DNA from: an uncultured Pelagibacteraceae bacterium
Lineage (GTDB): Bacteria > Pseudomonadota > Alphaproteobacteria > Pelagibacterales > Pelagibacteraceae
NCBI GenBank assembly: GCA_902584995.1
Contig: CACICF010000001.1
Location: 1-64,000, forward strand
Reading direction: 5' to 3'
Length of the DNA: 64,000 bases
The stretch's first letter is position 1; every line of letters starts with the position of its first letter. Shown one piece after another: positions 13,640 to 18,356 of the stretch. The notes below the pieces were generated by a model. That model searched no databases. It was not told the DNA's origin and saw nothing but the letters and a program-made list of their open reading frames with translations. Made by a program: the position numbers and the translations under genes.

Positions 13640-14641
13640 ATGAAAAGATCAACAAAAGTAACAACTATAATTGTAATATTTTTTATAATTATCGCTGGTG
13701 TAATCATTGCAAGAACAATGATTGGTAATCACTTCAAAAAAAAATTTAGCAAAAGACCACCACCGGGAATTATTGTTAAAACTGTTGAACAGAGAAAATT
13801 CCAAAATATAATTGAAACCTTCGGAACAGCTGTTCCAATAAAAGTAAAGTCTTATAACGTTGAAAAGTATGAAATTTTAGAGGAGATAAAATACAATACT
13901 AAAGTAAAAGCTGGAGACATAGTAGCAAAATTAAAAAATAGAACTATTAGAGCACCTTTTGATGGTGTCATAGGAAAAAGAAACTTTTCAGACGATATAA
14001 ATGTTTCAGAAAGCTCAGTTGTAATTGATATTGAAGATGCATCTTTTTTATTTATTGATGTTGATGTACCCGAAATATTCGCTCCATTTGTTAAAAAAGG
14101 ATTAGGTGTTGATGTAAGATTTTCTGGAAATAAAGAAAAAATATATCAAGGTAAAGTAGACTCCATTGCAAGTAAAATTGATGTAAGCAATAGATCTCTT
14201 AGACTTAGAGTTAAACTTCAAAACTCAAATTCTGAAATCTTGCCAGGTGCATTAATGGAAGTTGCAATCAAATATAACGAGAGAAACTCTTTAGGAATTC
14301 CTGATACAAGTGTAATCTTGGAAGGTAATAAAGTTTATATTTATAAAGTAGATGACAAAAATATTACTAAAAGAGTAGAGGTTATAGTTGGCAATAGAAG
14401 TCAAGGATATCTTGAAGTCAAATCTGGATTAAGTAAAGGTGATATAGTTGTTGCTGAAGGTCTTAAGAAAGTAAGGCCAAATGGCAAAATAAAACCTATA
14501 AAGGACGGGGCTCAAAAAAGTAAATCCGATTGGGGCAAAAAAGAAAAACCCAATAATTCAGAAGCGAAAAAAGGTAAGTTTGACTGGATAAAGAATTTAT
14601 TTGGTAAGTCAGATTCAAAAAAAAAAGAAGATAAAAAATAA
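13640..14641 (+). CDS. RND efflux periplasmic adaptor (HlyD/AcrA family), apparently lacking the alpha-hairpin
   Basis: Half-lipoyl KVKAGDIVAKLKNRTIRAPFDGVIG is fused directly with no coiled-coil insert; beta-barrel and membrane-proximal domains follow. Confidence 0.85.
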   Translation: MKRSTKVTTIIVIFFIIIAGVIIARTMIGNHFKKKFSKRPPPGIIVKTVEQRKFQNIIETFGTAVPIKVKSYNVEKYEILEEIKYNTKVKAGDIVAKLKNRTIRAPFDGVIGKRNFSDDINVSESSVVIDIEDASFLFIDVDVPEIFAPFVKKGLGVDVRFSGNKEKIYQGKVDSIASKIDVSNRSLRLRVKLQNSNSEILPGALMEVAIKYNERNSLGIPDTSVILEGNKVYIYKVDDKNITKRVEVIVGNRSQGYLEVKSGLSKGDIVVAEGLKKVRPNGKIKPIKDGAQKSKSDWGKKEKPNNSEAKKGKFDWIKNLFGKSDSKKKEDKK

Positions 14642-14649
14642 ATAATTAA

Positions 14650-17600
14650 ATGTATTTAACTGATGTAAGTATTAGAAGACCGGCATTATCATGGGTATTA
14701 TCTTTAATATTAGTTGTTTTTGGTACTTTTGTTTTTTCAAAGTTACCTGTTAGAGAACTTCCATCCGGTTTACAACCACCCGTAGTTCAAGTTCAAGTGA
14801 AATACGCTTCAGCTTCAGCTCCTATTGTTGATGAAGAAGTAACTCAGGTAATTGAAGAAGTAATTGGTGGAGCAGAGGGTATAAAAAATATTGATGCAAA
14901 ATCAGAGAATGGAAAAAGTACAATAAATATAGAGTTCGATACAGATATTGATCTTGATAATGCCGCAAACGATGTAAGAGAAAGAGTGGCTAGAATAGTT
15001 GGAAGGCTTCCCTCAGAGGCGGATGCGCCTAGAATACTTAAGCAATCTGCAGGTTTTACAACGACAATGTGGCTGGCGTTATCCTCAGAAACCTGGACAG
15101 ACCTTGAGCTTGGAGATTATGCGGAAAGGTATTTAGTTGACCAGTTTTCAAGCATTAAAAATGTTGGTAGAATAAGAACTGGTGGACTAAGAGAACTCAG
15201 TATAAGAGTATGGATAGATCCAATCAAGTTGGCAGCGAATAATCTAACAATACAAGAAGTTGAAAGATCACTTAGAAATGAAAATGTGAGATTACCAGCT
15301 GGTACTTTAGAGGCAGAGAATATTGATCTTACAATTAATATCGATAAATCTTATAACGACTTAGAAAAACTCAAACAGCTTCCAATAAAGAAGGCTAAAG
15401 ATAACATAGTAAGATTGTCTGACGTTGCAGATTTAGAGTTGGGTCCAGTGACTGAAAAAGTTTTATTCAGAGCTCAAAGTAAAGGGGCTTTAAATTTGAA
15501 AACAATGGGAATAGGTATCTATGCGAGGAGCGGTGCATCTACTGTAGAACTTTCCAAAGATATCAAGAAAAAAATTGAAGAAGTAAGAAAAACTTTACCA
15601 GGAGATTTAAATTTAGAAATAGCATTCAATAGAGCAACTTATATAGGTGAGGCAATTAATGAGGTTTATAAAACATTAATTATTGCATTTATATTAGTTG
15701 TAATCATAATTTATTTATTTTTAGGAAACCTTAAAGCTGTAATAGTCCCTGCCATTGCTCTACCAGTGAGTTTGATTGCAACCTTTTTAGGTCTATATAT
15801 ATTTGATTTATCAATAAATATATTTGTCTTATTAAGTTTTATTTTAGCAATAGGAATTATAACAGATGATTCTGTTATTATGACTGATGCTATATATAGA
15901 AGAATCGAAAATGGTGAAACGCCGTTAGTAGCAGCGTACAAGGGTTCAAAACAAATTACTTTTGCTATTATAGCGACAACTCTTATATTAGTGGCTGTTT
16001 TTTTACCTTTAATATTCATCGAGGGAATTGCAGGAACTTTATTTAAAGAGACTGCTATTGCCTTATCATTTGCAATAGTTGTTTCATCGTTTGTTGCATT
16101 AACACTCTCACCAATGCTTGGAAGCAAGTTTCTTGACAAAAAGAAAAAATCAAATTTCTTTACCAAAAGATTTGATAAATTTTTTCAAGGTTTTTTAAAT
16201 TTTTATTCAGAAACTTTAGTATTTTGGATCAATAGAAAAAAAACAATTGTAACATTTATTGTTTTAATCATTATTGGCTCAGCTGCTTTATATAATTATA
16301 CAAAAAAGGAACTATTACCAATGGAAGATAGAGGTGTATATTTGGTAATTGGTTTTACAGATGAGGGCAGTTCTTTTCAATACACACAAAAAAGAGCCGA
16401 AGATGTGGAAAAAAGACTGATACCATTGCTAGATAAGGAAAATAGCCCATACAATAGATTTCTTATGATCGTACCAGGATTTGGCTCTGAAAATAGTTTT
16501 TTGATCATTTCACTTTTAGACAATTGGAAAAATAGAAAACAAAGCTCCCAAACAATCATGAGACAAGCCATAGGTAAAATTGTTACTGTACCTCAAACAT
16601 TAGCATTTCCTATATCCCCTCAGTCTATAAGAGTTTCAAGTTACAACAAGCCTGTTCAAATGGTTATTTACGGAAATACTTACGAAGAGCTAGAACAAAT
16701 TCAAACTCAAGTTATTAGAATGCTCAGGAAAAACAGAAATTTATCAAGATTAGAATCTGATTACAGTAGAAATAAACCAGAAGTAAATATAAAGATTAAT
16801 AAAATAAAAGCAAAAGACTTAGGGATATCTGCAGAAGCAATTGGACAAACACTAGAGACTTTATATGGTGGCAAAACAGTTACAAAATTTAATAAACTTG
16901 GTAAAGAATATCCTATAATTTTACAACAATACTTAGAGGATAGAAAAGATAAGGAAAGTTTAAGTAAAATCTTTGTTAGATCTGAAAAAACTGGTAACTT
17001 AGTTTCTCTTTCAAATTTAGTAGAATTCAATGAAAAGGGAACTGCGAGTAAGTTATCAAGATACAATAGGCAAAGGGCTGTCACGATATCTGCAAATATT
17101 AGTGAAGGATATACTTTAGCTGAAGCAATTAAATATCTTGAAGAAACAATGACTAAAGTTGCGCCTGACAAACAAATTACTTGGAAGGGTAAATCAGAGG
17201 AATTAAAAGAAACAAGTAACGAACTTTACATAATTTTTGCCTTAGCTTTGTTAACTGCTTACCTTGTTATGTCTGCAACCTTTAATTCTTTTATTCATCC
17301 ATTTATAATTATTTTAACTGTTCCACTTGCGGTATTTGGTGGTTTGGTATTTATATTATTTTTAAATTCGTCAATAAATATTTTTTCACAAATTGCGCTG
17401 GTTATCCTTATAGGAATTTCAACAAAGAATAGTATTCTTATAGTTGATTATGCAAATCAATTAAGAACCAAAGGTAAAGATATTGAGAAAGCTGTAAAAG
17501 AAGCTTGTAGTTTAAGATTTAGACCAATAATTATGACTTCATTAAGTACTATGATAGCAATGTTACCGCTTGTTATTGGAAATATTGGACCTGGAGCAGG

Positions 17601-17760
17601 AGAAGGTTCTAGACTTGCAGTTGGTGCAACAATACTTGGTGGAATGATAATTTCTACGTTCTTTACATTATACGTAACACCAACAATGTATTTAACTCTA
17701 GCCAAAAATACAAAGAGAATTGACGCTGTTGATATAGAGCTGAAAAAACAGCTAAATTAG
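14650..17760 (+). CDS. RND efflux transporter, AcrB/MexF family inner-membrane pump
   Basis: 1036 aa; MYLTDVSIRRPALSWVLSLILVVFG, GIITDDSVIMTDAIYRRIENGE, IGISTKNSILIVDYANQL. Confidence 0.95.
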   Translation: MYLTDVSIRRPALSWVLSLILVVFGTFVFSKLPVRELPSGLQPPVVQVQVKYASASAPIVDEEVTQVIEEVIGGAEGIKNIDAKSENGKSTINIEFDTDIDLDNAANDVRERVARIVGRLPSEADAPRILKQSAGFTTTMWLALSSETWTDLELGDYAERYLVDQFSSIKNVGRIRTGGLRELSIRVWIDPIKLAANNLTIQEVERSLRNENVRLPAGTLEAENIDLTINIDKSYNDLEKLKQLPIKKAKDNIVRLSDVADLELGPVTEKVLFRAQSKGALNLKTMGIGIYARSGASTVELSKDIKKKIEEVRKTLPGDLNLEIAFNRATYIGEAINEVYKTLIIAFILVVIIIYLFLGNLKAVIVPAIALPVSLIATFLGLYIFDLSINIFVLLSFILAIGIITDDSVIMTDAIYRRIENGETPLVAAYKGSKQITFAIIATTLILVAVFLPLIFIEGIAGTLFKETAIALSFAIVVSSFVALTLSPMLGSKFLDKKKKSNFFTKRFDKFFQGFLNFYSETLVFWINRKKTIVTFIVLIIIGSAALYNYTKKELLPMEDRGVYLVIGFTDEGSSFQYTQKRAEDVEKRLIPLLDKENSPYNRFLMIVPGFGSENSFLIISLLDNWKNRKQSSQTIMRQAIGKIVTVPQTLAFPISPQSIRVSSYNKPVQMVIYGNTYEELEQIQTQVIRMLRKNRNLSRLESDYSRNKPEVNIKINKIKAKDLGISAEAIGQTLETLYGGKTVTKFNKLGKEYPIILQQYLEDRKDKESLSKIFVRSEKTGNLVSLSNLVEFNEKGTASKLSRYNRQRAVTISANISEGYTLAEAIKYLEETMTKVAPDKQITWKGKSEELKETSNELYIIFALALLTAYLVMSATFNSFIHPFIIILTVPLAVFGGLVFILFLNSSINIFSQIALVILIGISTKNSILIVDYANQLRTKGKDIEKAVKEACSLRFRPIIMTSLSTMIAMLPLVIGNIGPGAGEGSRLAVGATILGGMIISTFFTLYVTPTMYLTLAKNTKRIDAVDIELKKQLN

Positions 17761-18356
17761 AATAAAATATATTTTCTAGTAGTTAGTGAGTTTTTACATT
17801 TATTAAGTTGACTTCTGTACTTCTTAGACTGTTTTTCAACTTTCTTTGCTAATAAAATAATTTTTTGTTTATTTTTATAATTTTTATAGTTTCCCCATCC
17901 CTCATGATAGGCAACATACTGCCTAAAAGCATCGTTTTTAGGTATTTTTAGTATCTTCTCTGTTTTATTTGTGTACCAACCAATAAAATCTACACTATCT
18001 TTGAACCGCGTTCGGGTAGCATATTTATTTCCAGTTTCTTCTTTATACTGTTTCCATGTACCTTTTACAGCTTGAGAATAGCCAAAAGAACTGGATGGTC
18101 TTTTATACGGAATTACTTTAAACAATTTTTGTCTTGGTGGTTTAGCCAACCAATCAAAATCAGATTCCATTTTAATAATTGCAAGTTGCAAATAAATAGG
18201 TGTTCCCCATTTTTGTTCAGATTTTTTTGCATGTTTATACCAAAGATATCTTTCAGAAAAAATTGAACAACCATCAGCTGTATTTTTAGGTATAGAAGAG
18301 CATGCAGAAACCAAAATTAGAATTATAAATATATGTAATTTATTATTTCGAATCAC
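17757..18356 (-). CDS. Lipoprotein with transglycosylase SLT-like domain
   Basis: Lipobox LVSAC; lysozyme-like YLQLAIIKMESDFDW...SSSFGYSQAVKGTWKQY. Confidence 0.75.
   Translation of the reverse strand: MIRNNKLHIFIILILVSACSSIPKNTADGCSIFSERYLWYKHAKKSEQKWGTPIYLQLAIIKMESDFDWLAKPPRQKLFKVIPYKRPSSSFGYSQAVKGTWKQYKEETGNKYATRTRFKDSVDFIGWYTNKTEKILKIPKNDAFRQYVAYHEGWGNYKNYKNKQKIILLAKKVEKQSKKYRSQLNKCKNSLTTRKYILF

Follow-up and report, generated by a model that had tools for sequence, protein, structure and literature searches.

Bacteria of the family Pelagibacteraceae (SAR11) carry an RND efflux system whose periplasmic adaptor has no coiled-coil hairpin; the other domains of the adaptor and the partner pump look intact. 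We give a probability of roughly 0.5 to the proposal that this membrane-anchored adaptor and its AcrB-type pump recruit the single, unlinked TolC of the genome without a hairpin. In adaptors of the AcrA/MexA/HlyD type, a long coiled-coil hairpin lies between the two halves of the lipoyl domain and contacts the TolC-like channel, and current models of RND pumps treat it as both the seal and the key for TolC, with BesA as the main exception. We found no earlier report on the SAR11 adaptors in open-access papers.

Results

The adaptor-pump locus

The window, by which we mean the whole 64,000 nt stretch of DNA analysed, comes from a ~80% complete genome, assembled into 32 contigs with a total of 1.09 Mb. 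The pump gene starts 8 bases downstream of the adaptor gene (Table 1), and the pair is kept in other genera. The protein is identified as an RND adaptor by TIGR01730 (RND_mfp), with a score of 144.9 bits against a cut-off of 94.9, in a single-block match that covers only profile positions 125-321, the part of the adaptor after the hairpin. The neighbours of the pair are the same in all five SAR11 loci compared, of which three belong to other genera: a sulfurtransferase gene lies upstream and a phosphoglycerate-mutase-like gene downstream. In several SAR11 genera the pump is also adjoined by a gene for an SLT_4 lytic transglycosylase whose start resembles that of a lipoprotein; in the window (17757-18356) this gene is convergent with the pump gene and overlaps its end. 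The pumps of the nearest alphaproteobacterial systems are 35-45% identical to this one, and we saw no clear SAR11-wide signature in the pump apex loops.

Table 1. Positions in the window of the adaptor, its domains and the pump
Feature	Position	Strand	Evidence
Hairpin-less RND periplasmic adaptor, 333 aa	13640..14641	+	TIGR01730 above cut-off; orthologues in relatives
N-terminal membrane anchor, ~residues 8-27, hydrophobic helix without lipobox cysteine	13661..13720	+	Sequence; AlphaFold helix 2-34
Stretch up to and including first lipoyl half-motif, ~residues 44-98	13769..13933	+	Alignment with hairpin-bearing relatives
Deletion junction, residues 96-101 (AKLKNR); 61 extra residues here in relatives	13925..13942	+	hhalign single gap; spacing counts
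Second lipoyl half-motif, residues 102-134, including APFDG	13943..14041	+	Domain search; AlphaFold; alignment
Beta-barrel domain, ~residues 135-212	14042..14275	+	AlphaFold strands and one short helix; Pfam HlyD_D23, HlyD_3
Membrane-proximal domain, ~residues 213-287	14276..14500	+	AlphaFold; alignment
Lysine-rich tail, residues 288-333, lineage-specific	14501..14638	+	Variable or missing in relatives
AcrB/HAE1-type RND pump, 1036 aa, proton-relay residues kept	14650..17760	+	PF00873 E 1.4e-256; NCBIfam; motif alignment

The coiled-coil hairpin is absent

Both lipoyl half-motifs are present in the adaptor, and the linker between them is a turn of a few residues. As a measure of the hairpin we used the spacing between Thr63 in the GTA motif and Ala105 in APFDG, two anchors that flank the hairpin site. 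The 22 Pelagibacteraceae members measured have 41-45 residues here, as against 104 in four sister-family adaptors and 105-133 in the 36 nearest alphaproteobacterial relatives (105 in 34 of the 36, 119 in one and 133 in another), all of which retain the hairpin. When the family was aligned by profile with one hairpin-bearing relative using hhalign (E 3e-39, 249 aligned columns), the only gap was one of 61 residues, exactly at the hairpin. No exact RLS motif occurs in the hairpin region of SAR11 adaptors; the exact RLS/RLT tip motif is present in about half of the hairpin-bearing alphaproteobacterial relatives.

Structure prediction agrees with these counts. A full-length AlphaFold run on 15 sequences gave a poor model (pLDDT 52.5) and was replaced by a trimmed AlphaFold2 run on residues 39-288 with 52 sequences (mean pLDDT 75.7, falling to low values at residues 39-43, 67-75 and 116-133), in which the lipoyl halves are linked by strands and turns, with no helix between them. 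BesA structures were among the top Foldseek matches, aligned over 257-270 columns with no hairpin-sized gap; other top-ranked adaptors, which bear the hairpin, take about 300-350 columns. The preliminary description had proposed from the sequence that the hairpin is deleted between the lipoyl halves, that the adaptor otherwise looks intact, as does the AcrB-like pump, and that BesA is a precedent, and each of these proposals is borne out. Two findings that it had named as counting against its proposal, a hairpin elsewhere in the protein and a close relative with a full hairpin, were both looked for and neither was found.

The same description called the lysine-rich C-terminal tail, with its KSDW and KFDW repeats, unusual. 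Tail and repeats are real, but they are not a shared feature of these adaptors: the tail occurs in part of the genus only, varies there, and is seen in none of the other genera that we sampled. It may possibly bind the membrane.

The deletion is family-wide

Adaptor orthologues were found in 83 of 91 sampled genomes of the same genus (the source genome included; one match is partial, in an 86-aa ORF), the eight genomes without one being 55-86% complete, and in all 16 genomes sampled from six more Pelagibacteraceae genera. The pump is about as widespread as the adaptor across these genomes. Named Pelagibacteraceae single-cell genomes contain relatives of the adaptor at 93-96% identity, which places the source organism in SAR11. 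In the adaptor, dN/dS values of 0.05-0.15 indicate purifying selection. A local in-frame deletion, a decaying gene or an assembly artefact has nothing in its favour beyond the unusual length of the protein, and a negligible chance of being the explanation, because the same architecture is common to the sampled genomes of the genus and family (about 100 in all, some of them single-contig, besides the named single-cell genomes) and is under purifying selection.

A phylogenetic tree that did not include spirochaetes places all hairpin-less adaptors in a single clade (support 1.000), nested within hairpin-bearing sequences, and we found no adaptor orthologue in the sister family. The simplest reading is a single deletion of the hairpin in the ancestor of the Pelagibacteraceae. 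This loss looks independent of the one in spirochaetes, to judge from profile scores: BesA (E 4.2e-12; Foldseek TM about 0.6) ranks below several hairpin adaptors, MexJ and AcrA among them, when scored with the SAR11 profile. The nesting in the tree likewise points away from common descent with BesA.

Candidates for hairpin-less adaptors outside the family (G607, G613, G692, G646, G714, G486 and G145) all proved to have the hairpin. A profile of the lipoyl junction, run against 398 Pseudomonadota genomes, gave strong full-length matches in the two that belong to SAR11 and in no others; this profile is tuned to SAR11, and diverged cases, such as the hairpin-less examples mentioned for Legionella (PMC3807786), may escape it. 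In the one other near-full-length match (G1008), the first lipoyl half is found further towards the start of that ORF.

A single, unlinked TolC with altered tips

There is no TolC-like gene in the window, as the preliminary description stated; this absence has no bearing on channel independence, because the genome encodes a TolC on another contig than the pump. This TolC, of 432 aa, is encoded beside recA and alaS, and no other channel of the TolC type was found in the genome. One TolC was found in 16 of 17 genomes of the same genus that were searched (the one without is 79% complete), and likewise one in each of the 14 searched from other Pelagibacteraceae genera. Sister-family genomes have a gene cluster close to icd (L224, L225, L226 and L227) that encodes a PadR-like protein, a hairpin adaptor and two RND pumps. 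It is led by tolC in three genomes read whole (tolC, then the PadR-like gene, the adaptor and the two pumps) and lies apart from tolC in the fourth. In SAR11 (G000, G012), tolC is also near icd, with recA and alaS between, and has no adaptor or pump gene with it.

SAR11 TolCs have coiled coils close in length to those of E. coli TolC, and they keep the gate positions D153, Y362 and R367 and the glycines at the tips. The residue before the glycine is R or K at the first tip in 30 of 31 SAR11 TolCs, and S, T or R at the second tip, likewise in 30/31. By comparison, among 21 channels from E. coli, the sister family and relatives, none has a basic residue at the first tip, and 20 have V, L or I at the second. 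Both tips show the change consistently across seven genera. In AcrAB-TolC, Val-Gly-Leu/Thr elements at the channel tips touch the tips of the AcrA hairpins (PMC5404916). As far as sequence can tell, the hydrophobic residue of both Val-Gly elements is absent from the tips of SAR11 TolC, a difference that is newly noted here.

Profile searches of complete SAR11 genomes found, in most of those examined, no adaptor besides the hairpin-less one. The exceptions are G155 and G157, which also have an M50-peptidase/HlyD cluster, and G154, with one further weak match. Lipoyl matches to proteins of about 1020 and 430 aa in G012 were rejected as adaptors, since these are pyruvate dehydrogenase subunits; a SAR11 protein of the pyruvate dehydrogenase E1 type (1018 aa; L248:4687-7740) has a lipoyl domain fused at its N-terminus. 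We also note a triad of genes in G157 and G073 (L234:4851-8991 and L235:3183-7337) for HlyD-like proteins of 238 and 443 aa and an M50-peptidase/HlyD protein of 700 aa, with similar matches in G155 and in sister-family genomes. The triad in G157 adjoins a gene for a protein of >1600 aa with cadherin/Ig-like repeats, for which it is possibly the export system.

Discussion

We propose that the Pelagibacteraceae adaptors use their membrane-proximal, barrel and lipoyl domains to collar the pump trimer. In place of a hairpin tube, the tips of TolC would then meet the lipoyl ring and the funnel of the pump, much as in the arrangement proposed for BesABC, whose channel would be seated there directly (PMC3807786); substrates would leave through TolC in a proton-driven process. 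We favour this three-part pump because the architecture is conserved across the family, the deletion is clean, dN/dS is low and the proton-relay residues are kept, and because TolC is retained, mostly with no other adaptor found by profile, both of its tips are changed and BesABC provides a precedent. That TolC is unlinked to the pump counts against this reading. Its weak point is how the gate of TolC would open without hairpins: the gate is kept, unlike that of BesC, the channel partner of BesA, which is described as disrupted (PMC4446572).

The loss of the hairpin and the loss of the hydrophobic residues at the TolC tips fit a remodelled interface between adaptor and channel. This match is suggestive, not proof, and may be coincidence, because each change is a single event on the tree. 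More tentatively, at somewhat less than even odds, the system may have evolved independently as a tripartite pump whose gated TolC rests directly on the adaptor's lipoyl ring and the funnel of the pump, with its tip rebuilt alongside the loss of the hairpin. It is distinctly unlikely that the adaptor is simply a shortened version of the canonical one that works via TolC, with the tip change due to neutral drift or to another partner; the retained tip glycines and gate residues would suit such an adaptor, whereas a change so consistent at both tips over seven genera would not.

The main rival to a three-part assembly is a bipartite pump that works independently of a channel: the adaptor would support or regulate the pump, with release into the periplasm or envelope, and TolC would serve another exporter. 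An adaptor with neither hairpin nor RLS motif to hold TolC, a TolC gene unlinked to the pump and the missing hydrophobic tip residues are all compatible with this arrangement. We nonetheless consider it doubtful, given that TolC is retained in genomes that mostly offer no other candidate adaptor by profile, and that BesABC is a hairpin-less pump that can be tripartite. The preliminary description had left the choice between a channel-independent pump and a different adaptor-channel interface; the changed TolC tip favours the latter without proving it. There is also a slim chance that a hairpin is supplied in trans by an unrecognised coiled-coil protein that bridges the adaptor ring and TolC, a possibility raised by the authors of the BesA study (PMC3807786). 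The profile searches are compatible with such a protein, but the conserved neighbourhood contains no gene for a coiled-coil partner, and adaptor profiles find no candidate in most complete genomes.

If a three-part assembly without hairpins is correct, it would be a second, naturally fixed way of building an RND exporter independently of the hairpin. A whole family of abundant ocean bacteria that has lost the hairpin offers an independent natural test of the need for the hairpin and of how TolC is opened. The system also bears on how SAR11 bacteria handle toxic compounds or metabolites, with one such pump in most genomes.

Comparison with known systems

Compared with AcrA and MexA, the adaptors of AcrAB-TolC and MexAB-OprM, the SAR11 adaptor has the same domains except for the hairpin, through which AcrA and MexA make tip-to-tip contact with the channel. 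Among the Alphaproteobacteria, the nearest AcrAB-like systems (L255-L295) share the adaptor-pump gene order, and their adaptors align end to end with that of SAR11, but all of them carry a hairpin of about 60 residues. The architecture of the SAR11 adaptor is that of BesA (PDB 4KKS, 4KKT, 4KKU): a short loop joins the lipoyl halves, the lipoyl, barrel and membrane-proximal domains are kept, and the partner is an AcrB-type pump. The two differ in that BesA, a lipoprotein, has a loop of nine residues, whereas the SAR11 adaptor has a membrane helix and a shorter turn, and in that the BesABC operon includes its channel, whereas SAR11 TolC is unlinked and keeps its gate residues. In Borrelia burgdorferi, the hairpin-less BesABC pump is needed for drug tolerance (PMC3807786). 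The SAR11 adaptors are a family-wide and apparently independently derived case of the known but rare hairpin-less RND adaptors.
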